A DNA stretch of 48,197 nucleotides from SAR116 cluster bacterium AG-325-F22. GTDB lineage: Bacteria > Pseudomonadota > Alphaproteobacteria > Puniceispirillales > Marisalimonadaceae. The position numbers were made by a program, and so were the translations under genes. How positions within the stretch are numbered: the stretch's first letter is position 1; the number at the start of each line of letters is the position of its first letter. The notes below the pieces were generated by a model. That model was given only the letters and a program-made list of their open reading frames with translations, was not told the origin of the DNA and made no database searches. Below are positions 6,071-33,946 of the stretch, piece by piece. Location: the NCBI GenBank assembly GCA_003282885.1, contig QBYJ01000007.1, positions 1 through 48,197 of the forward strand, in the 5' to 3' direction.

Positions 6071-7372
6071 TTAATCATTTTTAGCATATTGTATTAAATC
6101 TTTTTTAGCATTTTTAGAAATATTAATTTTATTTTCTGAAATAAATGCTTCATGATTTTCTTCAACTTTATCCAGATCATAAAGGTAATTTACCATTAAA
6201 CCACCAGATAATTTTAAACCATTTAAAGAAGCGTCACCTAAGTAATTAATTTGTTCTAAAGATGCTCCATTACCTAGATGAAATCTAGCAACTGGATCAT
6301 TAGGCATGCCGTCAGATCTATCAGAATTTAAAAAATAGTCTCCAGCATATCTCATTAAAGAAGGTTTGATTTTTAAAAATTGTTCAGATTTCTTAAATTT
6401 TTCCAAAGTTAATTCAAATTTAGGATTTTTATTTTTAATCCATTTTCTTAGTCCTGGAACTGGAGACAAAGTTACAAACTTTTTTATATTATTAAACTCA
6501 AACTTTAGATCATTAGCAACTTGTTTAATTAAAAAGTTACCAAATGATATACCAGACAATCCTTTTTGACAGTTTGATATAGAATAAAAAACTGCAACGT
6601 TTGCTTCATGTGGCTCAATTAAATGTCTTTCTTCTTCTAAAACATCTTGAATTTTGGATGGAATATTATTCATTAGAGCAACCTCAACAAATATAATTGG
6701 TTCGTCTTGCATTGCTGGATGAAAAAAAGCAAAACATCTTCTGTCCTTAGGAGCTAATCGTAATCTAAGCTCATCCCACGAGTTTATTTCGTGGACTGCT
6801 TCATAAGCTATTATTTTTTCCAGTATATGTGCAGGTGTTTCCCAATTTATTGGCCTTAAAATAAGAAAGCCTCTGTTAAACCAGTTTTTAAATAAGTAGA
6901 CTAAATCATAGTCAACTGCGTTAAGTTCAGGGTTCTTTTTTAAAATATCTAGCAATCTTTTTCTTAAATTAACTAATCTTATAGTTCCTTTTGATATTCC
7001 ATTACATCTTCTAAAAATTTCACGCCTTTTAGGTTCTGAAAGTTTCATTAAAGTTATTAAATTTTCTGAATTACCGCCAATTTTATATTGATCAATAGCT
7101 TCAGAGAGTTCCGAAGTAGAAATATCGAAATTATCCCTAATTAATTTAAAAAAATTTATGAAATCTTTATCGTTTAATTGCTCACAATGTTGCATTAATA
7201 ATTCTGCATATTCAAGAGCTGAAACTTCACCTCTTGCAGAAGCAACATTTTCAATGATGTCTTTAGAAGATAAGGCTTGTTTCTTTTCTGAAAAAAAATT
7301 AAAAGATTTTCTCTTAATTGGTTTATCAAATAAAGAAGTAATTAAATCATGAAAAAAATTGATTTTACTCAT
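6071..7372 (-). CDS. Malonyl-CoA decarboxylase
   Basis: A 433-residue enzyme converting malonyl-CoA to acetyl-CoA and CO2. It has the helical N-terminal domain and a GNAT-like C-terminal domain that the family uses for catalysis. The catalytic serine is seen in LSPVPG (about Ser303) and the catalytic histidine in FHLGNGA (about His365); the SWDELRLRL and CFAFFHPAMQDEPIIFVEVAL regions are also typical. The start overlaps the stop of the aminotransferase gene by 4 bases, so the two proteins are coupled. Why malonyl-CoA turnover is tied to an aminotransferase is not evident; malonate use or malonyl-CoA detoxification are possibilities. Confidence 0.92.
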   Translation of the reverse strand: MSKINFFHDLITSLFDKPIKRKSFNFFSEKKQALSSKDIIENVASARGEVSALEYAELLMQHCEQLNDKDFINFFKLIRDNFDISTSELSEAIDQYKIGGNSENLITLMKLSEPKRREIFRRCNGISKGTIRLVNLRKRLLDILKKNPELNAVDYDLVYLFKNWFNRGFLILRPINWETPAHILEKIIAYEAVHEINSWDELRLRLAPKDRRCFAFFHPAMQDEPIIFVEVALMNNIPSKIQDVLEEERHLIEPHEANVAVFYSISNCQKGLSGISFGNFLIKQVANDLKFEFNNIKKFVTLSPVPGLRKWIKNKNPKFELTLEKFKKSEQFLKIKPSLMRYAGDYFLNSDRSDGMPNDPVARFHLGNGASLEQINYLGDASLNGLKLSGGLMVNYLYDLDKVEENHEAFISENKINISKNAKKDLIQYAKND

Positions 7373-8550
7373 TTTACAATATTATTAGTTAAATATTCAG
7401 ATGCTCTGCTAGCACCTCCTTTTTGATGAGGTACGCCAGCTAAAGAAAGTCCCATTTCCACCCCATTTAATGTTCCCATTAGCATTAAATCATTGAAATC
7501 ACCTAAATGACCAATTCTAAATACTTTTCCAGCTAGTTTTGACAAACCATTTCCAAGCGACATATTAAATTGTTCGAGTATGATTTTTCGTAAGCCGTCA
7601 GCATTGTGACCCTCTGGTAATTTAACAGCCGTTAAAACACTAGAATAATCTTTTTCTTCCTGACAAAGAACTTCTAATCCCCATGCTTGAACAGCAATTC
7701 TTGTAGCTTCTGCATGCCTGTCATGGCGCTTAAATACATTTGCCAACCCTTCTTCGTGAAGCATATTTATTGCTTCTTTTAGACCATATAAAAGATTGGT
7801 GGCTGGTGTATAAGGGAAAGATCCTAATTTATTAGATTTAATTTGTTCTTTCCAATCCCAATAAGATCTCTTCATACTATTTTCACTTGAGGCTAAAAGA
7901 GCCTTTTCAGATATTGCATTAAAGGACAATCCTGGAGGTAACATCAATCCTTTTTGAGATCCTGACACCGTCACATCAACACCCCATTCGTCATGTTTAT
8001 ATTCTAGAGAAGCTAAGCCAGATATTGTGTCTACCATCAATAATGCGTTATGACTTGAGGAGTCAATTGCTTCTCTTACTTCACTTATCCTTGAAATACT
8101 ACCAGTAGATGTTTCGTTATGTACAACACAAACAGCTTTTATTTTTTTTTCAGTATCTTTTTTTAATCGATCAAACAACTTTTCAGGTTCAGCACCTCTT
8201 CTCCAGTCAGTTTCTAAAAACTCAGTTTTAATTCCAAGTTTAAGAGCCATTTTATTCCATAAAGATGCAAAATGACCAGTTTCAACCATTAATACCAAAT
8301 CACCTTCATTAAGAATATTCACTAAAGCAGCTTCCCATGCACCAGTTCCCGACGCAGGGAAAATAATTACATCTGAGGTAGTTTTAAATATTGATTTCAT
8401 TCCATCAAGACATTCTCGAGTTAGTTTTGTAAAATCAGGTCCACGATGATCAATTGTTGGGTAATCCATAGCTCGTAAAATTCTATCTGGGACATTTGAA
8501 GGACCAGGTAATTGTAAAAAATGTTTTCCTGGCTTATATTTTTTATTCAT
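7369..8550 (-). CDS. Class V aminotransferase, serine/alanine-glyoxylate type
   Basis: A 393-residue PLP enzyme of fold type I, class V. The Schiff-base lysine is Lys200 in SGSQKG, and the phosphate-binding ASGTGAWEAAL (about 66-76) and VDTISGLAS (173-181) are intact. The opening LPGPSNVP is characteristic of alanine/serine-glyoxylate aminotransferases. It would use glyoxylate as amino acceptor to make glycine, fitting the glyoxylate made by the purine pathway in this window. The ureidoglycine-glyoxylate transaminase (PucG) is a close relative, but that route uses allantoate amidohydrolase whereas this locus encodes allantoicase, so serine- or alanine-glyoxylate activity is preferred. A GAAGGA lies before the ATG. 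Confidence 0.85.
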   Translation of the reverse strand: MNKKYKPGKHFLQLPGPSNVPDRILRAMDYPTIDHRGPDFTKLTRECLDGMKSIFKTTSDVIIFPASGTGAWEAALVNILNEGDLVLMVETGHFASLWNKMALKLGIKTEFLETDWRRGAEPEKLFDRLKKDTEKKIKAVCVVHNETSTGSISRISEVREAIDSSSHNALLMVDTISGLASLEYKHDEWGVDVTVSGSQKGLMLPPGLSFNAISEKALLASSENSMKRSYWDWKEQIKSNKLGSFPYTPATNLLYGLKEAINMLHEEGLANVFKRHDRHAEATRIAVQAWGLEVLCQEEKDYSSVLTAVKLPEGHNADGLRKIILEQFNMSLGNGLSKLAGKVFRIGHLGDFNDLMLMGTLNGVEMGLSLAGVPHQKGGASRASEYLTNNIVK

Positions 8551-8679
8551 AATTAAAAAATTCCTTCTTTACTAAGTAAGTTTTATTGAAAATATTAAGA
8601 TAATGTTTTACTTTATCTATACACTTTAAATTTAAAACTTTCCATACAGAATTTAATATCAAAATTAAAGGTTATTTCA

Positions 8680-11634
8680 ATGCCAGATGGCGATACAGAC
8701 CAATTATTATACAAATTAAAGAATAATACCTCAGCTGAGGTTTATTACGACAACTTTACCAAAGGAAGATATGCTACTGATGCTTCAATTTATCAAATGG
8801 TTCCTTATGGTGTGTTAATCCCAAAAACAAAAAAAGATTTAATAGAAACTATTAACTATGCAAGAGAAAGTAATATCCCATTATTAGCCAGAGGTGGAGG
8901 TACATCACAATGTGGACAAACAGTTAATAAAGCTATTGTTATCGATAATTCCAAATTTTTAAACAAAATCATTGATTTTGATAAAGAAAAAATGACTTGT
9001 ATTGTTGAACCTGGGATAGTTTTGGATGAGTTAAATCGTTTTTTAAAAACTTTTGGACTTTGGTTTCCAGTAGACGTTTCAACTTCGAGCAGAGCCACTA
9101 TAGGTGGCATGGCTGGAAATAACAGTTGCGGTGGTAGATCGATTAGATATGGGATGATGCGAGACAATGTCCTAGAAATAGAAGCTATACTATTTGACGG
9201 TTCAACATACAATTTTGGGAAAATAGAAAATAACAATCCCAATTTAAGTAATGGTGCTGCTACCAAAATTATTTTAAATCTCTTGAAATTAGCTAAAGAT
9301 AACCAAAATGAAATACTTGCAAAATTTCCAAAGGTTCTTCGAAGGGTAGGTGGATACAATATTGATGCCCTGCTTCCTGATGCAATGGCAAATAGACCTA
9401 ATGGTAAGGTAGGTGATGGTATAAATTTATCACACTTGTTAGTAGGGTCAGAGGGCACGCTAGCTTATTCATCTTCAATAACATTAAAATTGTCACCTCT
9501 TCCATCAAAAAAGATTATGGGTGTGTGTCACTTTCCTTCTTTTTATGAAGCTATGGACGCTGCACAACATATTGTTCCACTAGATCCGGTGGCAGTTGAA
9601 CTAGTTGATGACACTATGATACAACTTGCAAGAAAAATTGATATGTTTAAGCCAACTGTAGAAGCGGTTGTTAAAGGAGATCCTAAATCATTACTTTTAG
9701 TTGAATTTGCAGAAGAAGACATGGAAGAAAATCTAGTTCGATTAAAAAAGCTTCACGAATTGATTAATGATCTTGGATACTCGTGGAAAAATACAAAAAA
9801 ACCTGGTGGAGTTATAGATGTAATTGACACTTCTCTTCAGTCTAAAGTAAGTGAAATGAGAAAGTCTGGTTTAAACATTATGATGTCAATGAAGCAAGAT
9901 GCAAAACCAGTCTCATTTATTGAAGATTGTGCTGTTGAGCTTAAAGACTTAGCTGAGTATACTGACGGTCTTAACAAAATATTTGATAAATATAACACCA
10001 AAGGAACTTGGTATGCTCATGCATCCGTTGGATGCCTTCATGTAAGACCTGTTCTTAATATGAAATTTCAAGAAGATGTTTCCAAAATGAGAAATATTGC
10101 AAATGAAACTAGTAATTTAGTTAAAAAATTTAATGGCTCCTATTCTGGTGAACATGGAGATGGCATAGCAAGATCTGAGTTCAATGAAGTAATGTTTGGC
10201 AAAAAGATGAATAATCTTTTTAGAACCATAAAAAAATCATTTGACCCTAATAATATATTCAACCCTGGGAAAATTATTGATGCTCCTAAAATGGATAATA
10301 GAGATCTTTTTAGATATGCGCCATCTTATAACGCTGAAAATATTAAAACGCTTTTAGACTGGTCTTTGTGGACAGGTAAAGCTGGTGGTTTTCAGGGTGC
10401 AATTGAAATGTGTAATAATAATGGATCATGCAGAAAATTGGACGGTGGAGTAATGTGTCCATCGTTCAGGGTTACAAAGGATGAAAGAGATTCGACTAGA
10501 GGAAGAGCAAATTCTCTTAGATTAGCACTTTCGGGACAACTTGGAAAAGATGCTTTAATCAGTGACGAGATGACAGACACTATGAAATTATGTGTGTCCT
10601 GTAAAGCGTGTAAAAGAGAATGTCCAACAGGGGTAGATATGTCAAAAATGAAAATTGAATTATCTTATTTAAAAGCCCAAAAATATGGTTTAGATATTAA
10701 TAGCAAACTTGTTGCTTATCTTCCAAAATATGCACCATTTGCATCAAAGATATTTAAACTGATGAACCTTAGAGATAGAGTGCCAGTTTTAGCTAAAATA
10801 AGTGAGCTATTATTAGGTTTCACAGCTAAAAGACCTCTTCCCAAATGGAGAAATGATTACTTCAAAGATAGTGAATTACCAAATACAATAGATAAGACAC
10901 AAAACAAAACACCAGTTATTTTGTTTGTAGATACTTTTAATCGTTATCATGAACCAGAAAATGTAAGATCTGCAATAAAAGTTTTAAATGCTGCAGGATT
11001 TTTTCCGTTTATTCCAAAATCAAAAAATGTTAAAAGTGTAATGTGTTGCGGAAGAACGTATTTAAGTAATGGCTTGATTGATAATGCAAAAAAAGAGGCA
11101 ACTAACGTTTTAGATACTCTTTTACCTTACGTATCACAAGGTATTAGTGTAGTTGGATTAGAACCCTCATGTATTTTATCATTTAGGGACGAATTACCTG
11201 CTTTATTGAAAAATAAGAACACCAAACTTTTAAAAAATTATTCTTTTACCTTTGAAGAATTATTAGCCAAACAATATAAAAATCTTACCTTTAAAAAATT
11301 AAATGAAAAAGTGTTACTGCATGGTCACTGCCATCAAAAAGCATTTGATGCTGTTAAGCCAATCCAAAAAATTTTAAATTACATTGAAGGTTTAAATGTA
11401 GAAACAATAGAAACAAGTTGTTGTGGGATGGCTGGGGCATTTGGCTATGGAAAAGACACTTATGATATTTCTATGAGAATGGCTAACGAAAGGCTTTTTC
11501 CAGCTATAAAAAATAATTCAAAAGAAATTAAAATTATTGCTGATGGCACCTCTTGCAGATGTCAAATCAAGGATGGTTTAGATAGGCAAGCCATTCACGT
11601 TGCTAAATTTCTAGATGATAATATAATTTACTAA
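8680..11634 (+). CDS. Giant FAD/4Fe-4S dehydrogenase (YdiJ/GlcD-GlcF-like fusion)
   Basis: A 984-residue soluble or membrane-associated flavo-iron-sulfur dehydrogenase for a D-2-hydroxyacid such as D-lactate, D-2-hydroxyglutarate or glycolate. Order: PCMH-type FAD domain (about 35-275, with ARGGGTSQCGQ), FAD-oxidase C-terminal domain to about residue 540, then a cysteine pattern with GSCRK, VMCPS and CVSCKACKRECPTG (about 637-651) for Fe-S clusters, and two CCG motifs near 788 and 913 as in GlcF/HdrD-type proteins. Size is close to E. coli YdiJ. It is the first gene of a plus-strand operon with the molybdoenzyme 40 bases downstream; AAGG precedes the ATG. Substrate is unassigned; glycolate or another ureide-derived hydroxyacid is possible. 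Confidence 0.88.
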   Translation: MPDGDTDQLLYKLKNNTSAEVYYDNFTKGRYATDASIYQMVPYGVLIPKTKKDLIETINYARESNIPLLARGGGTSQCGQTVNKAIVIDNSKFLNKIIDFDKEKMTCIVEPGIVLDELNRFLKTFGLWFPVDVSTSSRATIGGMAGNNSCGGRSIRYGMMRDNVLEIEAILFDGSTYNFGKIENNNPNLSNGAATKIILNLLKLAKDNQNEILAKFPKVLRRVGGYNIDALLPDAMANRPNGKVGDGINLSHLLVGSEGTLAYSSSITLKLSPLPSKKIMGVCHFPSFYEAMDAAQHIVPLDPVAVELVDDTMIQLARKIDMFKPTVEAVVKGDPKSLLLVEFAEEDMEENLVRLKKLHELINDLGYSWKNTKKPGGVIDVIDTSLQSKVSEMRKSGLNIMMSMKQDAKPVSFIEDCAVELKDLAEYTDGLNKIFDKYNTKGTWYAHASVGCLHVRPVLNMKFQEDVSKMRNIANETSNLVKKFNGSYSGEHGDGIARSEFNEVMFGKKMNNLFRTIKKSFDPNNIFNPGKIIDAPKMDNRDLFRYAPSYNAENIKTLLDWSLWTGKAGGFQGAIEMCNNNGSCRKLDGGVMCPSFRVTKDERDSTRGRANSLRLALSGQLGKDALISDEMTDTMKLCVSCKACKRECPTGVDMSKMKIELSYLKAQKYGLDINSKLVAYLPKYAPFASKIFKLMNLRDRVPVLAKISELLLGFTAKRPLPKWRNDYFKDSELPNTIDKTQNKTPVILFVDTFNRYHEPENVRSAIKVLNAAGFFPFIPKSKNVKSVMCCGRTYLSNGLIDNAKKEATNVLDTLLPYVSQGISVVGLEPSCILSFRDELPALLKNKNTKLLKNYSFTFEELLAKQYKNLTFKKLNEKVLLHGHCHQKAFDAVKPIQKILNYIEGLNVETIETSCCGMAGAFGYGKDTYDISMRMANERLFPAIKNNSKEIKIIADGTSCRCQIKDGLDRQAIHVAKFLDDNIIY

Positions 11635-11674: not shown

Positions 11675-14020
11675 ATGCCAAGCAAAATTAGAAAACCTAC
11701 TTCTTTTCATTGGGGAAGTTATTACGCAGAAATAGAGAATGATAAACTAGTTGCAATGCGACCATATGAGAATGATAGAGACCCATCAAGTATTGCAAAT
11801 GGAATAATTAATAGCGTTGACGATGACTTAAGAATTAAAGTTCCACATGTTCGAAAAGGTTATCTTCGTGAAATAAGAAAAGAAATAGCTAATAGTAAAA
11901 TGTCTTTGACAGGCAAACGTGCAAGAGAAAAACGTGGATCCGATAATTTTGTTCCTTTAAGTTGGGATGAAGCTATAGATATCGTTGCTTTTGAACTGAA
12001 CAGGATTAAGAAAAAATATAAAAATAAAGCTTTCTATGCCGGTTCTTATGGTTGGGGGTCAGCTGGAAGATTTCACCACGCCCAAAGCCAACTTCATAGA
12101 TTTTTTAATAGTTATGGTGGTTATACAAGATCAGTCAACACATATTCCTATGCTGCAAGCGAAACAATTATGCCGCATGTTATTGGTTTGTCTTATAGAA
12201 AATTTCTTGACACTCACACTGATTGGAACAACATCAAAGATAATTCCCAGTTAATTGTAATGTTTGGGGGATTACCACTTAAAAACTCTCAAGTAACTTC
12301 TGGTGGAGTGGGTAAACATACTACCAAAGACTATATTAAAAAATGTCAAAAAAAGGGTATTAAATTCATTAATGTAAGTCCTATGGAAATGGAAGCTGAT
12401 GTAATTAGTAAAGCTGAATGGATTAAAATAAGACCTGGGACAGATACTGCTTTAATGCTGAGTGTAGCTTTCATCTTGGAAACTGAAAGTTTAGTTGATA
12501 GAGAGTTTTTAAATAAATATTGCATTGGATACGATAAATTTTTAAAATATTTAAAGGGAGTATCTGATGGCAAAGCTAAAACTCCTTTTTGGGCATCTAA
12601 AATAACTGGCATACCTAGTAACACAATAAATAGTTTAGCAAAAAAGATGTCTACAAATAGAACCATGATTACTGGAGCATGGGCCTTACAAAGACAACAA
12701 TATGGTGAACAACCTCATTGGATGATTACTGTCTTAGCTTGTATGCTTGGACAAATCGGAATGCCTGGTGGCGGCTTTGGTCTTGGATACAGTGCTGAAA
12801 ACGGTATTGGGAATCCAGTACAATATCACAAATGGCCAGCATTAGATCAATTTAAAAATGCTGTTTCAGATTTTATACCAGTAGCAAGAATATCAGATAT
12901 GCTTTTAAATCCGGGTGACATATTCTCATATAACGGTAAAGAAATAAAATATCCAGATATTAAATTAGTATACTGGGCAGGCGGTAATCCGTTCCATCAT
13001 CAGATGAACTTAAAAAAACTTGTTAAAGCATTTAAACAACCAGATACTATAATTGTAAATGAAATTTGGTGGAATAGTCTAGCAAGACATTCTGACATTG
13101 TCTTACCTGCAACTTCGTCACTTGAGAAAAATGACATTGGAATTCGACATTGGGATCAAACTATATCACCAATGCATAAAATAATTGAACCAATAGGTGA
13201 ATCAAAATCAGACTATGAGATTTTCTCATTAATTTCTTCAAAACTTAATATTAAAGACAAATTCACAGAAAATCGAAATGAAGATCAATGGTTACAATAT
13301 TTGTGGGACGAAGCAAAACAGGGTGCAAAAGAGGCTGGTTTTAATTTACCTGAGTTTGACAAGTTTTGGAAAAATGGATTTCAAGAAGTATTGTCACCCA
13401 AAAAGCAAACTATTTTGTTAGAAGAATTTGTAAAAGACCCTATTGAAAATCCTGTATCCACTCCGTCTGGAAAAATTGAAATATTTTCAGAAACTATAGA
13501 AAATTTTAATTATAAGGACTGCCCTGGTCACCCAACTTGGTTAGAACAAGAAGAGTGGCTAGGTTCATCTTTAACCAAACATTACCCTCTTCAACTTATA
13601 TCAGGTCAACCACATAATAGGTTACATAGTCAACTTGACAACGGATCTGAAAGTCAAAGAGAGAAAATATCTGGAAGAGAACCTATGAAAATTCATCCAC
13701 AGGATGCTCTTGCTCGAAAATTAAAGAATGGAGACATTGTTGAAATATTTAATAAAAGAGGTAAATGTCTTGCAGGAGTTGTTATAAGTGAAGAAGTTAT
13801 GAAGAGTATAGTTTTTCTACCAGTTGGTGCTTGGTATGACCCTGTTGATGATGGCGGATTTTGTGTACATGGCAACCCAAATGTATTAACTGCCGATGTA
13901 GGAACTTCGTCACTCGCACAAGGTCCGTCAGCTCACTCTACACTAGTTGAAGTCAAAAAGTTTACAAAAGAGTTGCCAGCAATAAGTATTCTAGAGAAAC
14001 CCAACATTGTTAATAAATAG
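11675..14020 (+). CDS. Cytoplasmic DMSO-reductase-family molybdoenzyme (BisC/DorA-like)
   Basis: A 781-residue bis-MGD oxidoreductase related to biotin sulfoxide, DMSO and TMAO reductases. The conserved active-site region GSYGWGSAGR has Tyr125 and Trp127, and Ser158 in NTYSYAASETIMPHV corresponds to the molybdenum-ligating serine of DMSO reductase. The C-terminal molydopterin dinucleotide-binding domain includes SGQPHNRLHSQ and KIHPQDA. There is no Tat signal and no N-terminal Fe-S motif, so it should be cytoplasmic like BisC. RBS AAGAGG precedes the ATG. It sits between the FAD/Fe-S dehydrogenase and the serine-substituted racemase homologue. S-oxide reduction is the family function; a role in ureide metabolism is only suggested by location. 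Confidence 0.88.
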   Translation: MPSKIRKPTSFHWGSYYAEIENDKLVAMRPYENDRDPSSIANGIINSVDDDLRIKVPHVRKGYLREIRKEIANSKMSLTGKRAREKRGSDNFVPLSWDEAIDIVAFELNRIKKKYKNKAFYAGSYGWGSAGRFHHAQSQLHRFFNSYGGYTRSVNTYSYAASETIMPHVIGLSYRKFLDTHTDWNNIKDNSQLIVMFGGLPLKNSQVTSGGVGKHTTKDYIKKCQKKGIKFINVSPMEMEADVISKAEWIKIRPGTDTALMLSVAFILETESLVDREFLNKYCIGYDKFLKYLKGVSDGKAKTPFWASKITGIPSNTINSLAKKMSTNRTMITGAWALQRQQYGEQPHWMITVLACMLGQIGMPGGGFGLGYSAENGIGNPVQYHKWPALDQFKNAVSDFIPVARISDMLLNPGDIFSYNGKEIKYPDIKLVYWAGGNPFHHQMNLKKLVKAFKQPDTIIVNEIWWNSLARHSDIVLPATSSLEKNDIGIRHWDQTISPMHKIIEPIGESKSDYEIFSLISSKLNIKDKFTENRNEDQWLQYLWDEAKQGAKEAGFNLPEFDKFWKNGFQEVLSPKKQTILLEEFVKDPIENPVSTPSGKIEIFSETIENFNYKDCPGHPTWLEQEEWLGSSLTKHYPLQLISGQPHNRLHSQLDNGSESQREKISGREPMKIHPQDALARKLKNGDIVEIFNKRGKCLAGVVISEEVMKSIVFLPVGAWYDPVDDGGFCVHGNPNVLTADVGTSSLAQGPSAHSTLVEVKKFTKELPAISILEKPNIVNK

Positions 14021-14031
14021 GTTAGTATGTT

Positions 14032-14736
14032 TTGAGCATTGAAATTTGTATTATAAATCCTTATGGGTCTCCTAAATCAAACGAAAAGCTAAAAAAATGT
14101 GCCTCGCAAATTATTGATGAAAATTCTAATATCTATATAAATGAAAATGATTTAGTAAATGATTATTTCAGTCATTATTTAGAAACAACTAATATTTCAA
14201 GTTTTATTAAACAAATAGAAAATAACAATTCATCAGATGCATTTATAATTGCATCTTTTGAAGATATTGGAGTTGATACAATTAGAAAGGTTACTTCAAA
14301 ACCAGTCATAGGTATTGGAGAAGCTTCATTTTATACTGCCAATATAATAGCTAATAAGTTTTCAATTATTACAAATGTATCTCAATCCCATGAGGCCTTA
14401 AAAAATAATTTAATTAAATATGATATGGACCACAAATGTGTTTCATTAAAGTCTATTGAAGTCCCAATCCTAGATATGGAGACAATGTCAAAGTCAAATC
14501 TAACAAAATTAGAAAATGAAATTCAAAGGACTATTTCAGAAGATAGTCCTGAAGCAATCATTATTACTAGCGCGGGAATAATAAATCTTGCAAAAGATTT
14601 AAGTCATAAATTTAATTTACCTATTATAGAAGGTATGACTGCAGCAACTGCTCTCATTGAAAATTTAACCAAACTTCAATTAAATATAAAAAAATTTGTT
14701 ACAAAACCTAATAGAAATTTTGGAATTCCAATATAA
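14032..14736 (+). CDS. Asp/Glu/hydantoin racemase homologue lacking both catalytic cysteines
   Basis: A 234-residue member of the cofactor-independent racemase family (hydantoin and allantoin racemases). Family enzymes use two cysteines as paired acid/base. The paralogue at 33203-33946 has them in ACFDDTG (Cys78) and GCAGMSNL (Cys183). Here the aligned motifs read ASFEDIG (Ser75, TCT at 14254-14256) and TSAGIINL (Ser180, AGC at 14569-14571). The NPNTT substrate loop near the N-terminus is also changed to NPYGS. The rest aligns well, including PVIGIGEA. It is 11 bases after the molybdoenzyme gene and starts with TTG. Classical racemization is unlikely; a binding, lyase-like or isomerase-like role is possible. 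Confidence 0.85.
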   Translation: MSIEICIINPYGSPKSNEKLKKCASQIIDENSNIYINENDLVNDYFSHYLETTNISSFIKQIENNNSSDAFIIASFEDIGVDTIRKVTSKPVIGIGEASFYTANIIANKFSIITNVSQSHEALKNNLIKYDMDHKCVSLKSIEVPILDMETMSKSNLTKLENEIQRTISEDSPEAIIITSAGIINLAKDLSHKFNLPIIEGMTAATALIENLTKLQLNIKKFVTKPNRNFGIPI

Positions 14737-14746
14737 ATAATAAATT

Positions 14747-16375
14747 TTATATCAATTCGTTTTCTATATCAGTTTCTATCAATTCCTTATCTCTATCAGA
14801 GTAACCTCCAAGTCCTCCGCCACCCGGTGTAAATATTTGTAATATTTCTCCTGCCTTAATTACTTGAGTTCCCTTACCATTAAGCATTCTTTTATTTTTA
14901 ATAGAGACCTGGCCTGCATTTCCATTTTCTCCGTTTGATCTGCCTCTAGCAGGAAATTTTATTCTATCAAAAGAAGCTAATAAATCCATATCTTCATCAA
15001 TTGCGGATTTAATTTCAATAACTTGACCTAAACCACCATTAAATTTTCCTTTACCACCACTTCCTGGGTTATATTCTTTTTTTAGAAATAATAATGGCGC
15101 AACGGCTTCATTAATTTCAACTGGGGTTCCTTTAACACCTGAAGGATAAGCTGTGGCTGATAATCCATCTTTGATTGGTCTTGCACCAGTACCTCCATTA
15201 ACCACGGCGGTAACAGCAAACAATGAATTATTATTAGCTCCTCTATCTGTGTTTCCACGAAAAGTTATGTTCCATAAACATGATGCTCCTTCTGCTGGAA
15301 CTTTATCTGGAATAGCTTTTTCTAAGCATCCAAAAACCATGTCTGGAAGCATTTGACCAATAATATGCCTTGCACAAACTGCTGCTGGATAAGGTGCATT
15401 CAAAATTGAACCTAATGGGGCTTGAATTTCAAAAGGATGTAAGGAACCTGCATTATTTGGTATTTCCGCACTAACAAGGCAACTTAATCCAAAACATGTG
15501 TAAGCCTTAGTATAAGATAAAGGTACATTTATGCCAAACTTTGATTTTTCTGAAGTACCAGTAAAATCTACAGATATTGACTTTTCTGAAACGATCAATT
15601 TAGCCTCTAGTTTAACATCCTTTTCAAATCCATCTATCATCATTGAGTTTTTATATTCACCATTAGGAATTTTTCTAATCTCATTTTCAACTGCCAATAA
15701 TGATTTAGTATAAATAAAATCAGACAAATCCTTTAAGTTACTTATTTGAAACTCGTCCATCATCTCAACTAACCTTCTACAACCAATATCATTGCAGGCT
15801 GCTAAAGAATATACATCCCCTTCTGTTTCTACTGGTTGCCTTGTATTTTCACTGATTAATTTTAGTAAAGTTTTATTCATCACCCCTTTATCAGCTAATT
15901 TTAACATAGGAATATATAAACCCTCCATATGAACATCTGTAGCATCAGGACCAACCCCTAATCCACCTATATCAGTCAGATGTGATGTACATGAAAAAAG
16001 ACCAACTATTTTTTTATCTTTAAAACATGGGGTAGTAATAACAAAATCATTTAAATGTCCTGTTCCCATCCATGGATCATTTGTAATAAAAATGTCACCT
16101 TCATTCATAGTATTTAAAGGAAAATGGTTAATAAAGTGCTTAACTGATTCTGCCATTGAGTTTACATGACCTGGTGTACCTGTAACAGCCTGTGCCATCA
16201 TTCTTCCATCTAAGTCAAAAACCCCTGCAGAAATATCCCCACACTCCCTAACAATTGGACTAAATGCAGTTCTCACTAGCGTTTGACCTTGTTCTTCAAC
16301 TACAGAAAGAAGACGGTTCCACATAACCTGATTTTGAATATTTTTTTTATCTTCTGTTAAATTATTACTATTCAT
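14747..16375 (-). CDS. hyuB: Hydantoinase B / oxoprolinase subunit HyuB
   Basis: A 542-residue subunit of the hydantoinase/oxoprolinase/acetone-carboxylase family, partner of HyuA. Recognisable are the N-terminal RTAFSPIVRECGDISAG block, ITNDPWMGTGHLNDF (about 97-111), HVNSMAESV and the glycine-rich end FTPGGGGLGGYSDR. Family enzymes hydrolyse cyclic amides with ATP (5-oxoproline, N-methylhydantoin) or carboxylate ketones. Its start overlaps the HyuA stop by 8 bases, indicating a heteromeric complex. Location among allantoin genes suggests a hydantoin-like ureide substrate, but this is inference. It converges on the racemase homologue with a 10-base gap. Confidence 0.92.
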   Translation of the reverse strand: MNSNNLTEDKKNIQNQVMWNRLLSVVEEQGQTLVRTAFSPIVRECGDISAGVFDLDGRMMAQAVTGTPGHVNSMAESVKHFINHFPLNTMNEGDIFITNDPWMGTGHLNDFVITTPCFKDKKIVGLFSCTSHLTDIGGLGVGPDATDVHMEGLYIPMLKLADKGVMNKTLLKLISENTRQPVETEGDVYSLAACNDIGCRRLVEMMDEFQISNLKDLSDFIYTKSLLAVENEIRKIPNGEYKNSMMIDGFEKDVKLEAKLIVSEKSISVDFTGTSEKSKFGINVPLSYTKAYTCFGLSCLVSAEIPNNAGSLHPFEIQAPLGSILNAPYPAAVCARHIIGQMLPDMVFGCLEKAIPDKVPAEGASCLWNITFRGNTDRGANNNSLFAVTAVVNGGTGARPIKDGLSATAYPSGVKGTPVEINEAVAPLLFLKKEYNPGSGGKGKFNGGLGQVIEIKSAIDEDMDLLASFDRIKFPARGRSNGENGNAGQVSIKNKRMLNGKGTQVIKAGEILQIFTPGGGGLGGYSDRDKELIETDIENELI

Positions 16376-18437
16376 ATTTAATATATTCCATTTTTAAAAA
16401 TTTATTGTCTAAAACTTTAATATCAAAATTTTTTGATACAATTATTGTTGTTTGCTCTTCTGAAATAATACATTGCCCCCTAATTAAATCTCCAGGCTTT
16501 AGATCATTTCTTTCAAAATATGGTACTTTAATCTTTTTCTCACTATGATAATCGACAAAATCAACTGAAGTATTCTCTTTTATATTCACATAAGAGTTTA
16601 GTTCTTTATATTGATTTGGATTTTCATTTTGGATAGATAAAGAAAGGGACCACGTTAAAATTTCTATATCTGCATTGGGAAGAATTCTTGCATATAAATC
16701 TTCATATTTTTTCTCAAATGAGCTTTTAATACTATCTATATCCATTAAAGATAATAAGTTATTCTCAATAGGAACTTTAATTTCATGCCCCTGACCAGCA
16801 TAACGCATATACGCAAAACGCTCTTCTATAAAATTGTTTTTTTCTGATTTATTTTCAATAATTTTTTTTGCTTCTTCTCTCATAGTTTTAAGTAAATTAT
16901 TTACTTTTTTTACTTGAAACCCCTTTAAAAGCATTCTAAGACTCTTTACAACTTCATAACCTACGGGAGCTTTTAAAAAGCCTACTGCTGATCCAACACT
17001 TGCATTAGTTGGTATGATTATAGAACTTACTTTTAATTTTTCAGCTACCCTTGCAACGTGCAAAGGGGCAGCACCTCCAAATGCTATAAGAGTTCTATTT
17101 GAGGTTTCGTGACCTTGTTCTACCGTATGAACCCTTGCTGCGTTCGACATTGTTTCATCTACAATTTCTGAAATTGCTAAAGCAGCAGTGTCTGTATCTA
17201 AATTAACTTTTTGACCAATGTTTTTTGTAATAGCATTGATTGATAAATCTTTTGATAATTTAATTTTTCCGCCTGCAAAATTTTTAGGATTAATTTTACC
17301 TATAACTAAATCAGCATCAGTTATAGTTGGCAATGTCCCTCCATTAGAATAACAGGCTGGACCAGGAACAGATCCGGCACTGTCAGGACCTGTAATTATT
17401 TGTTCTAATTTATTTACTCTAGCTATAGATCCTCCACCTGCACCAATCTCAACCATTTCAATTATAGGAATTCTCAGAGGAAACCCACTACCTTTTTTAA
17501 ACCTAGCTTTCCTATCAACTTCAAACTCTCTTGCTTTAATCGCTTTTTTATCTTCAATAATAGTAATTTTAGCTGTAGTACCTCCCATATCAAATGATAT
17601 TACTTTGTTTAAATTTAGATCTTTGGCAATAGAGGTTGCCAAAATTGCACCACCAGCTGGACCTGATTCGACTAATCTAACTGGATTTTTGCACGCACTA
17701 GATACATTAGTTAGTGTACCCCCTGAAGTCATTAAAAGGAGTGGACAAATAAAACCTTTCTCCTTTAATTCATAATCTAATTTTTTCAAATAATTAGACA
17801 TTAGGGGTTTTATATATGCATTTATCACTGTTGTAGTAAAGCGCTCATATTCTCTTATCTCAGGACACACGTCAGAGGAAATACTAACTTCAACTCCTTG
17901 TAAATTTTCAAGTATATATTTTTTTAAAACATTCTCATTTTTAGAATTAGCATATGAATGTAAAAAACCAATTCCTATACTTTCAAAATTTTCAATTTTA
18001 ATTTTCTCTATAATTTTTTTAAATTTAGTTGTATTTATGGGTTTAATTTGATTTCCATTTACATCAGTTCTTTCCTCAATAACATACCTATATTTTCTTG
18101 GGACAAGTGACATTGTTTTTTCAATCAAAATGTCGTATTGATCAAATCTACTTTCATAACCAATATCAAGAACGTCTCTGAAACCTTCAGTAGTTATAAA
18201 ACAGGTTTTTGCTCCTTTTCTCTCAATGATTGCATTTGTGGCCAAAGTAGTACCATGGATAATCATTTTAATTTCAGATGAATTAATATTATTTTCATTT
18301 AGAAGGTCAGATATTCCGTCAATTACTGCAACTTCTGGTTGAGCTGTCGAAGTTAAAACTTTTTTAGTTAGAAGTTGATGTTGATTTTCTAGTACAATAT
18401 CTGTGAAAGTTCCGCCTATATCGATAGCCAATCTCAT
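16368..18437 (-). CDS. hyuA: Hydantoinase A / oxoprolinase subunit HyuA
   Basis: A 689-residue ATP-dependent subunit with an actin/Hsp70-like nucleotide fold. The N-terminal phosphate-1 motif DIGGTFTDIV is at residues 5-14, the second GTT-containing loop is HGTTLATNAI (about 63-72), and the phosphate-2 region is FDMGGTTAKI near residue 287. ESGPAGGA precedes it. The full hydantoinase A length is present. GGAAA precedes the ATG. The gene lies 119 bases after uraD on the same strand and overlaps hyuB, so the pair is probably read with purine genes. Candidate substrates are allantoin or other hydantoins; 5-oxoproline remains possible. Confidence 0.92.
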   Translation of the reverse strand: MRLAIDIGGTFTDIVLENQHQLLTKKVLTSTAQPEVAVIDGISDLLNENNINSSEIKMIIHGTTLATNAIIERKGAKTCFITTEGFRDVLDIGYESRFDQYDILIEKTMSLVPRKYRYVIEERTDVNGNQIKPINTTKFKKIIEKIKIENFESIGIGFLHSYANSKNENVLKKYILENLQGVEVSISSDVCPEIREYERFTTTVINAYIKPLMSNYLKKLDYELKEKGFICPLLLMTSGGTLTNVSSACKNPVRLVESGPAGGAILATSIAKDLNLNKVISFDMGGTTAKITIIEDKKAIKAREFEVDRKARFKKGSGFPLRIPIIEMVEIGAGGGSIARVNKLEQIITGPDSAGSVPGPACYSNGGTLPTITDADLVIGKINPKNFAGGKIKLSKDLSINAITKNIGQKVNLDTDTAALAISEIVDETMSNAARVHTVEQGHETSNRTLIAFGGAAPLHVARVAEKLKVSSIIIPTNASVGSAVGFLKAPVGYEVVKSLRMLLKGFQVKKVNNLLKTMREEAKKIIENKSEKNNFIEERFAYMRYAGQGHEIKVPIENNLLSLMDIDSIKSSFEKKYEDLYARILPNADIEILTWSLSLSIQNENPNQYKELNSYVNIKENTSVDFVDYHSEKKIKVPYFERNDLKPGDLIRGQCIISEEQTTIIVSKNFDIKVLDNKFLKMEYIKYE

Positions 18438-32333: not shown

Positions 32334-33206
32334 ATGTTTAGTAAAAAAAATAATACCTATTATGTATGTGTCTTCTTCTTTTCCTTATTTGTTTTATTTC
32401 TTTATGGTCCCACATTTACAATAATCCTTCTAAGTTTTCAAGGACCAGACGGAGGATTAACCTTTCCTCTTAATGGAATATCAACTTATTGGTTTGAAGA
32501 ACTTTGGAGAGGTGGATCTGTAGTGGATATTGGTTCGGCTTTTAAAAGATCCATAATTTTAGGTATAATAGTTATGATTTTAACTGTAGTTTTGTCTGTT
32601 GCAGCAGGATTGGCATTTAGAAAAAAATTTTGGGGCTCTAATGTTCTTTTTTTTACGACTGTAGCAAGCCTTATAGTTCCGTCAATAGTATTATCTTTAG
32701 GTGTCGCTTTACAATTTAGACTAATTGACGACTTGACAAAATGGATTGGAAGTTCACTTAACATTAGTTGGGTAAATGATTCTTTCCAAACATCATTGGG
32801 TATGTATTCAAGTGGACTTGGGGCACAATTAACTTGGACCCTTCCTTTTGGCTTATTAATAATGTTTGCCGTCTTTAACCGATTCGATAAATCTTACGAA
32901 GAAGCAGCGAGAGATCTAGGGGCAACTCCATGGAAAACTTTCAAGGAAATTGTATTACCCCTTATTGCACCAAGTATTATTGGAATTGCGTTATTCGGAT
33001 TTACATTGTCATATGATGAATTGGCAAGATCATCTCAAGTTATGGGATCTGGCAATACACTTCCACTTGAATTACGTGGTTTAACAACTACAGTTACTAC
33101 ACCTATTATATATGCTTTAGGCACAGTAACGACTTTTGTGTCATTCACCGTCATTGCTATTTCAGTTGGATTTTATCTGTTTCTCAAAAGGAAAAAAGGA
33201 ATATGA
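32334..33206 (+). CDS. ABC transporter permease, PotC-like
   Basis: A 290-residue inner-membrane permease with about six helices and the EAA loop EEAARDLGATPWKTFKEIVLP (about 188-208). It begins 2 bases after the first permease and overlaps the racemase start by 4 bases (ATGA), so racemase production is directly coupled to transporter production. Heterodimer partner of the PotB-like permease. Confidence 0.92.
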   Translation: MFSKKNNTYYVCVFFFSLFVLFLYGPTFTIILLSFQGPDGGLTFPLNGISTYWFEELWRGGSVVDIGSAFKRSIILGIIVMILTVVLSVAAGLAFRKKFWGSNVLFFTTVASLIVPSIVLSLGVALQFRLIDDLTKWIGSSLNISWVNDSFQTSLGMYSSGLGAQLTWTLPFGLLIMFAVFNRFDKSYEEAARDLGATPWKTFKEIVLPLIAPSIIGIALFGFTLSYDELARSSQVMGSGNTLPLELRGLTTTVTTPIIYALGTVTTFVSFTVIAISVGFYLFLKRKKGI

Positions 33207-33946
33207 GTTTGAATAAAAAGATTTGCATTATAAATCCAAATACCACTACTTCCATGACAAAAGTCATAGATAATACTGCAAAAAAATATGCTGGACTTGA
33301 TACAGAAATTATATCAACTCAATCTAAAACTGGTCCTGAAAGTATTGAGGGTTATTATGATGAAGCTTTTTGTATTCCCGGATTAATTGAAGAAATCAAA
33401 GATAATATAGATGCTGATGGTTATGTAATTGCATGTTTTGATGACACAGGTCTAGATGCCGTAAGATCAATTACCGACAAACCCGTCATTGGAATTGGAG
33501 AAGCGGCTTATCATGTAGCAAGTCTAGTTTCTGGAAACTTTTCAGTAATAACAACATTAACGAGATCGATAAATCCCTTAAAACATAATCTAAAAAAATA
33601 TGGACTATTTGAAAAATGCGTAAGTGTCACTGCTATAGAGGTACCTGTATTAGATCTAGAAGAAATCTCAGATGATAATCTTGACAAACTAAATAAGGGT
33701 ATAGAAAAAACCATATTAGAAAATAATTCAGAAGCTATTATTCTTGGATGTGCAGGAATGTCTAACTTAGCAAAAGACCTTGAGCTAAGTCACGGTCTGC
33801 CAGTAATAGAAGGGGTTTCTTCAGCAGTTGTATTAATAGAAGGTTTGATTAATCTTCAAATTAAAACAAGTAAAATCGGCTCTTATGCTTTACCTAGAGA
33901 TAAGAATTATTCCGGTTATTTGAGTAAATTTAGACCACAAAGATAA
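33203..33946 (+). CDS. Hydantoin/allantoin racemase (Asp/Glu racemase family)
   Basis: A 247-residue cofactor-independent racemase with both catalytic cysteines, Cys78 in ACFDDTG and Cys183 in GCAGMSNL, and the NPNTT substrate loop at residues 11-15. The most sensible substrate here is allantoin or another 5-substituted hydantoin, since UraD makes only S-allantoin while imported or spontaneously formed allantoin is racemic. Coupled to the permease by ATGA overlap and followed after 4 bases by upp. It is the intact paralogue of the serine-substituted protein at 14032-14736. Confidence 0.88.
   Translation: MSLNKKICIINPNTTTSMTKVIDNTAKKYAGLDTEIISTQSKTGPESIEGYYDEAFCIPGLIEEIKDNIDADGYVIACFDDTGLDAVRSITDKPVIGIGEAAYHVASLVSGNFSVITTLTRSINPLKHNLKKYGLFEKCVSVTAIEVPVLDLEEISDDNLDKLNKGIEKTILENNSEAIILGCAGMSNLAKDLELSHGLPVIEGVSSAVVLIEGLINLQIKTSKIGSYALPRDKNYSGYLSKFRPQR

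Follow-up and report, generated by a model that had tools for sequence, protein, structure and literature searches.

The stretch of DNA analysed here (hereafter, the window; 48,197 nucleotides) belongs to an incomplete assembly of 1.6 Mb (88 contigs, 63% complete) and corresponds, according to profile matches, to a urate-degradation region. It encodes the large subunit of a xanthine dehydrogenase (TIGR02965, 981.7 bits, over the cut-off) and the small one (TIGR02963, 390.2 bits, under the cut-off of 467), a PuuD-type urate oxidase (PF06181), a HIU hydrolase (TIGR02962), an OHCU decarboxylase (TIGR03164), a dihydropyrimidinase/allantoinase (NF009941), an allantoicase (TIGR02961) and a ureidoglycolate lyase (PF04115). 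The window also carries two genes for proteins of the Asp/Glu/hydantoin racemase fold (PF01177), RacSS and RacCC. RacCC (33203–33946, + strand, 180.7 bits against PF01177), located after ABC-transporter genes about 18.5 kb from RacSS, retains both catalytic cysteines and is probably an allantoin/hydantoin racemase; its match to the arylmalonate decarboxylase model NF052327 reaches only 21.5 bits for a cut-off of 225.

The RacSS gene (14032–14736, + strand) starts with TTG and encodes 234 amino acids with no internal stop, an open frame as reported in the initial annotation. The protein matches PF01177 with 95.1 bits (cut-off 31) over positions 1–210 of the 211 of the profile, and none of the NCBIfam models, NF052327 included, matched it at E values up to 0.001. 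Its residues Ser75 (codon TCT, 14254–14256) and Ser180 (codon AGC, 14569–14571, directly preceded by Thr179) align with Cys79 and Cys184 of the Klebsiella pneumoniae allantoin racemase KpAllR and with Cys78 and Cys183 of RacCC, such that RacSS lacks the catalytic cysteine pair of allantoin and hydantoin racemases. Both replacements had been noticed in the initial annotation, with codons and coordinates that proved exact, as had the alteration of the N-terminal loop, which reads NPYG in RacSS and NPNT in RacCC. Each of the two serine codons is one base away from a cysteine codon; our reading found no cysteine codon at either position, and the same state recurs in 29 genomes, the window's included, which excludes a sequencing artefact. 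Elsewhere in the same genome, a weak PF01177 match (L003 1501–1893, i.e., G000:C8:2017–2409; 31.8 bits for a cut-off of 31) is interrupted by four stops; its open pieces of at least 30 amino acids gave no convincing match to the racemase profile or to the proteins of the window, and it could be a chance match or an old remnant.

RacSS is the last gene of a same-strand run that begins with the fusion of a FAD-linked oxidase and a Fe-S/GlpC-like half, resembling 2-hydroxyacid dehydrogenases by profile and sequence matches (8680–11634, + strand), and continues with a BisC-family molybdoenzyme (11675–14020, + strand). The latter scores 952.8 bits against TIGR00509, just under the cut-off of 1017.55, and its best match of solved structure is 7l5i, a trimethylamine-N-oxide reductase entry; from its sequence, it appears closest to S/N-oxide reductases, and no signal peptide could be seen by eye. 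The proximity to a molybdoenzyme mentioned in the initial annotation is in fact immediate, the molybdoenzyme frame ending 11 nt upstream of RacSS. On the other side, HyuB and HyuA genes (14747–18437) adjoin RacSS and precede the OHCU decarboxylase gene.

We searched for orthologues in 58 genomes of the same family (f1), of which 40 belong to the same genus, two to a sister genus (g3) and 16 to g2 and g4. Counting that of the window, 31 of the 40 genomes of the genus yielded a RacSS-type match, as did both g3 genomes; none was found in the 16 genomes of g2 and g4. Of the 32 RacSS-type loci in named records, 23 bear the name SAR116 cluster and nine that of alpha proteobacterium or a wider one. 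Among the 30 full-length orthologues of the genus, again counting the window's, 29 display the Ser/Ser state and one (G017) is Cys/Ser, while in G016 the end of a contig truncates the copy and leaves visible only the second position, a serine. Both g3 copies carry the first cysteine and, in place of the second, a Thr directly preceded by another Cys. RacCC was read within the family in 17 of 31 cases in the genus and in 8 of 9 in g2/g4. Eight genomes with RacSS have no RacCC match, six from the genus and the two of g3; they include G044 (listed as 100% complete) and G004 (95%), and an obligate RacSS–RacCC complex is unlikely on account of these eight.

From the 118 distinct hits, three short ones were dropped (the truncated G016 copy and two from the order, L132 and L133), and the motif alignment of the other 115 contains 58 Cys/Cys, 29 Ser/Ser, 25 Ala/Gly, two Cys/Thr and one Cys/Ser rows. 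Of the Cys/Cys rows, 25 originate from the family and 33 from elsewhere in the order and class. The single cysteine that characterizes proteins of the arylmalonate decarboxylase or Pseudomonas fluorescens allantoin racemase (PfAllR) type is also missing from the 29 Ser/Ser rows, which are devoid of cysteine at both positions; they encode the first serine by TCN codons and the second by AGY codons. The second cysteine is absent from all 32 rows of the RacSS clade and the first is kept in three of them (one Cys/Ser and two Cys/Thr), which suggests that the second was probably the first to be lost. The states Cys/Cys, Cys/Thr, Cys/Ser and Ser/Ser thus live on in close relatives, and these surviving intermediates make the stepwise loss of the two-base racemase mechanism traceable. 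Searches of the open-licence literature, which could not target this state directly, yielded no description of a naturally occurring Ser/Ser member.

The gene order around RacSS is strongly conserved on one side. In 30 of the 32 loci, the next matched gene upstream is that of the molybdoenzyme, 29 times directly and once across an insert, the two other loci lying at contig edges. The gene downstream is HyuB in 25 loci, the OHCU decarboxylase in six and a Ldh2-type gene in one; these counts identify the molybdoenzyme as the stable neighbour and the hydantoinase genes as the variable one. The FAD/Fe-S gene adjoins the molybdoenzyme gene in the RacSS loci that reach that far, as well as in two g4 loci (L116 and L117). 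In the Ser/Ser rows, the TTG codon lies a few bases past the molybdoenzyme stop, except in L030 (G035), in which an insert of 2.7 kb (L076, about 7300–9980) separates the two genes and harbours other ORFs, one of them methyltransferase-like by eye. In G007 (L055, 7631 and 9264), the molybdoenzyme corresponds to two matched frames adjoining an intact RacSS, owing to a frameshift or an assembly error.

At E values up to 1e-150, the molybdoenzyme was detected in 29 and the FAD/Fe-S gene in 28 of the 31 genomes of the genus with RacSS, and neither was detected in the nine genomes of the genus without it, a co-absence of RacSS and molybdoenzyme that is partly trivial given the adjacency of the genes and the many incomplete assemblies. 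The 16 genomes of g2 and g4 have the FAD/Fe-S gene in 11 cases and the molybdoenzyme in 12 without any RacSS, which indicates that RacSS is not needed for the basic function of these two proteins. In L116 and L117, the FAD/Fe-S and molybdoenzyme genes precede those of the OHCU decarboxylase, HIU hydrolase and PuuD, with no RacSS in between, and a g2 contig starting at the molybdoenzyme (L118) exhibits the same order, again without RacSS; on the basis of these loci, RacSS looks like a later addition. Outside the family, we searched the class for the molybdoenzyme (E up to 1e-200, window's genome left out) and compared the flanks, up to 1.5 kb and in some cases cut by contig ends, by blastp with a set of proteins from the window and from L037: no racemase-like match was present in the flanks of the best 29 of 75 genomes' loci, and we found no sign there of a general molybdoenzyme–racemase pair. 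In two of these 29 loci (L104 and L114), a distant FAD/Fe-S-like match (25–26%) adjoins the molybdoenzyme. A part for RacSS in a FAD/Fe-S–molybdoenzyme module may be proposed from the position of its gene.

In a tree of 90 rows, built without the motif columns and without Ala/Gly rows, the 32 RacSS rows form a clade with maximal support (100/100) on a long stem (1.16 changes per column), beside the RacCC proteins of the same genus (99/81); the program warned of long branches. The initial annotation had proposed to test whether the Ser/Ser form makes a clade of its own, with kept gene order beside the molybdoenzyme, and this clade and 30 of the 32 loci support it. The duplication likely took place within or before the family: the tree favours a date after the split of g2 and g4, but the alternative, in which all Cys/Cys rows of the family form one clade, was not rejected by the AU test (p 0.349). 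Monophyly of the Ser/Ser rows without the Cys/Ser row was likewise not rejected (p 0.329), such that the Cys/Ser state could be either ancestral or a reversal. The sporadic and decaying Ser/Ser form that would have contradicted the initial annotation was not encountered: the state is shared by 29 of 30 copies in the genus, there are no stops in the frames of these 30 full-length copies or of both g3 copies, and the TTG start is found at the same place in 29 of 29 Ser/Ser rows. The median omega (Nei-Gojobori, pairs with dS of 0.05–1.5) is low and indicates purifying selection: it amounts to 0.157 among the Ser/Ser rows, where 307 of 406 pairs could be used, and to 0.129 among the RacCC sequences of the genus, where 102 of 136 could. 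RacSS is hence a real and conserved gene whose product, judging from its sequence, is probably functional.

Beyond the two cysteines, alignment to KpAllR, on which all our statements about the pocket rest, revealed a set of changes that are fixed or nearly so between Cys/Cys and Ser/Ser rows: N12Y, T18N, C79S, H105Y, T119N, G135D, G183T and C184S (KpAllR numbering). All 58 Cys/Cys rows have Asn at the position of Asn12, where 27 of 29 Ser/Ser rows have Tyr (Tyr11 in RacSS, codon 14062–14064); the position of Thr119 is occupied by Thr in 50 of 58 Cys/Cys rows, with eight lacking it, and by Asn in 29 of 29 Ser/Ser rows (Asn115, codon 14374–14376). H105Y alone is not special, since seven of the 58 Cys/Cys rows also have Tyr there. 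The RacSS clade shares, in each of its 32 rows, two adjacent acidic residues (Glu77-Asp78, codons 14260–14265); Glu77 is found in none of the 58 Cys/Cys rows and Asp78 in all 58. In the g3 rows, positions 12 and 105 are already Tyr, but Thr119 and Gly135 are retained. The substrate contacts of KpAllR include Asn12, Thr118 and Thr119 (PMC12661438), and this trio becomes Tyr11, Thr114 and Asn115 in RacSS, with one of the three kept; such altered contacts speak for a different ligand.

An AlphaFold2 model of RacSS, computed from a 38-row alignment that included Cys/Cys rows, reached a pLDDT of 86.9 and a pTM of 0.85. Foldseek retrieved as best match the KpAllR entry 3qvk (E 8e-20), followed by 3qvj (E 5e-19), with 27–28% identity and a TM-score of 0.87 (query) for both, so the predicted protein retains an intact two-domain racemase fold, the outcome of the structure prediction that had been suggested as a check together with an inspection of the pocket. 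KpAllR (HpxA, 3qvj) shares with RacSS this fold and the conserved Thr118 position and differs from it by Cys79/Cys184 and Asn12, where RacSS has its natural Ser/Ser pair and Tyr11, and by the residue facing Asn115. The chains of 3qvk and 3qvl have Ser/Ser at the cysteine positions, as in RacSS, and represent what we take to be, from their sequence, an engineered double mutant of KpAllR. Arylmalonate decarboxylase and maleate isomerase, which have the superfamily fold, were also among the Foldseek matches; their one-thiol chemistry illustrates that this fold is capable of other reactions, and to our knowledge both retain at least one catalytic cysteine.

We tentatively favour the view, still short of an even chance, that RacSS is a duplicated protein of the allantoin racemase type that kept the two-domain fold, gave up two-thiol proton transfer and was rebuilt for another ligand or reaction. 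RacSS would no longer racemize allantoin, and a label of allantoin racemase, which similarity could suggest, is probably wrong. The cleft between the half-domains would accommodate a different small molecule, probably ureido/hydantoin-like or 2-hydroxyacid-like, and residues Tyr11, Tyr101, Glu77/Asp78, Thr114/Asn115 and Thr179-Ser180 are expected at or near the site from the alignment. The protein could convert this molecule in a non-thiol step that would belong to the part of metabolism served by the flavo/Fe-S dehydrogenase and the molybdoenzyme. Since the changed pocket residues are themselves tightly conserved, we prefer an altered catalyst to a protein that only binds. A more specific version, which we regard as doubtful, would have a thiol-free enzyme of these marine SAR116 bacteria arise through one-thiol forms resembling Cys/Thr and Cys/Ser to the Ser/Ser state and now catalyse a new reaction, a different step on an intermediate of the urate or glyoxylate pathway, beside the flavo/Fe-S–molybdoenzyme pair. 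The changed role put forward in the initial annotation is thus the best reading of the clade, the gene order, the purifying selection and the remodelled pocket, whereas the loss of activity that accompanied it is, for RacSS itself, a prediction, and the binding protein, decyclase and single-base isomerase suggested there are candidate roles.

RacSS might instead be a pseudoenzyme, binding a metabolite of the allantoin pathway without converting it and serving as a sensor, a buffer or a protein partner, e.g., of the molybdoenzyme. The Ser/Ser pair of the KpAllR chains in 3qvk and 3qvl, the first of which is the best fold match, as well as the conservation of both fold and neighbour, would agree with this. 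However, the pocket acquired many new residues that became fixed, beyond what mere disabling requires, and the RacSS-type genes of G044 and of both g3 genomes, without RacCC match, speak against an obligate partner of RacCC; we consider a pseudoenzyme rather unlikely.

A serious rival to the altered catalyst, even if unlikely in our estimation, is that RacSS still isomerizes allantoin or a related compound, as a racemase, epimerase or single-base isomerase in which the carboxylate of Glu77 or Asp78 and/or a hydroxyl would replace the thiols. It deserves attention because PfAllR, a natural Gly/Cys enzyme (5lfd, deposited as allantoin racemase, and 5lg5), dispenses with one thiol: it has the same fold as RacSS and, like it, no cysteine at the first position, which is Gly here and in the same Gly/Cys motif of four of 109 Pseudomonadota homologues. 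In work of 2016 by Cendron, this enzyme is said to use a nearby Glu, three residues on, in place of the first cysteine, and Asp78 of RacSS would stand at the place of this Glu, beside the invariant Glu77. The Cys/Thr form of g3, moreover, keeps one thiol and is the sole PF01177 match to the RacSS query in these two genomes. On the other hand, Asp78 is no special replacement, being present in all Cys/Cys rows too, PfAllR keeps the second cysteine that the RacSS clade has lost throughout, and the Ser/Ser rows offer no candidate substitute for that second thiol. OpaE and NozR are specialised proteins of the hydantoin/allantoin racemase group in which the residues at the positions of Asn12, Thr118 and Thr119 of KpAllR differ from those of allantoin racemases (PMC12661438), as do two of the three in RacSS. 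They nevertheless keep and require the catalytic cysteine pair: relative to the wild type, epimerization activity falls to 4.8% in OpaE C90S and to at most 0.3% in C199S and the double Ser mutant (PMC12661438), and the Cys-to-Ala mutants of NozR gave no detectable conversion (PMC10156859). The claim of the initial annotation that a change from Cys to Ser costs activity agrees with these mutants; the Gly of PfAllR and the Cys-less homologues found elsewhere in the family call for caution in extending it to RacSS. Finally, the idea that RacSS is a degenerating copy retained as a passenger of the operon, to which the long stem branch could point, is highly improbable and was rejected on the open frames of the 30 copies of the genus and both g3 copies, the TTG shared by 29 Ser/Ser rows, an omega of about 0.16 and the fixed new pocket residues.

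The loss of thiols is not unknown in the family, and what is special to RacSS is a traceable loss from the allantoin racemase type with surviving intermediates. A survey of 398 sampled Pseudomonadota genomes, window's genome excluded, yielded 118 matches (E up to 1e-25), and the 109 that were read, at least four of which repeat loci of the class survey, fall into 82 Cys/Cys, 12 Ala/Gly, six Cys/Gly, four Gly/Cys, three Thr/Ser, one Ile/Gly and one Ser/Gly. Both cysteines are therefore absent in 17 of these 109 homologues, among which no Ser/Ser was found. A second Cys-less paralogue, RacAG (motifs AAFGDPG and FAGAPLSG), is encoded in L037 (16455–17204, − strand) and also in L036, L041–L043, L051 and others, near genes for a TRAP transporter and PuuE-like and DapA-like proteins and, in g1 loci, together with hydantoinase A/B. 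Like RacSS, RacAG belongs to the purine/hydantoin gene region and, as do the Ala/Gly homologues of Pseudomonadota, lacks cysteine at both positions; unlike RacSS, these proteins have Ala/Gly there and keep Asn at the Asn12 position, and RacAG, with 22–25% identity to RacSS in the matches, represents a separate lineage. The window is devoid of the TRAP, PuuE-like, RacAG and DapA-like genes that come after HyuB/HyuA in many sister loci. Another natural Cys-less type, with Thr/Ser at the cysteine positions (e.g., TVSDSG and GSTTMHQ), is present in L266, L270 and L271.
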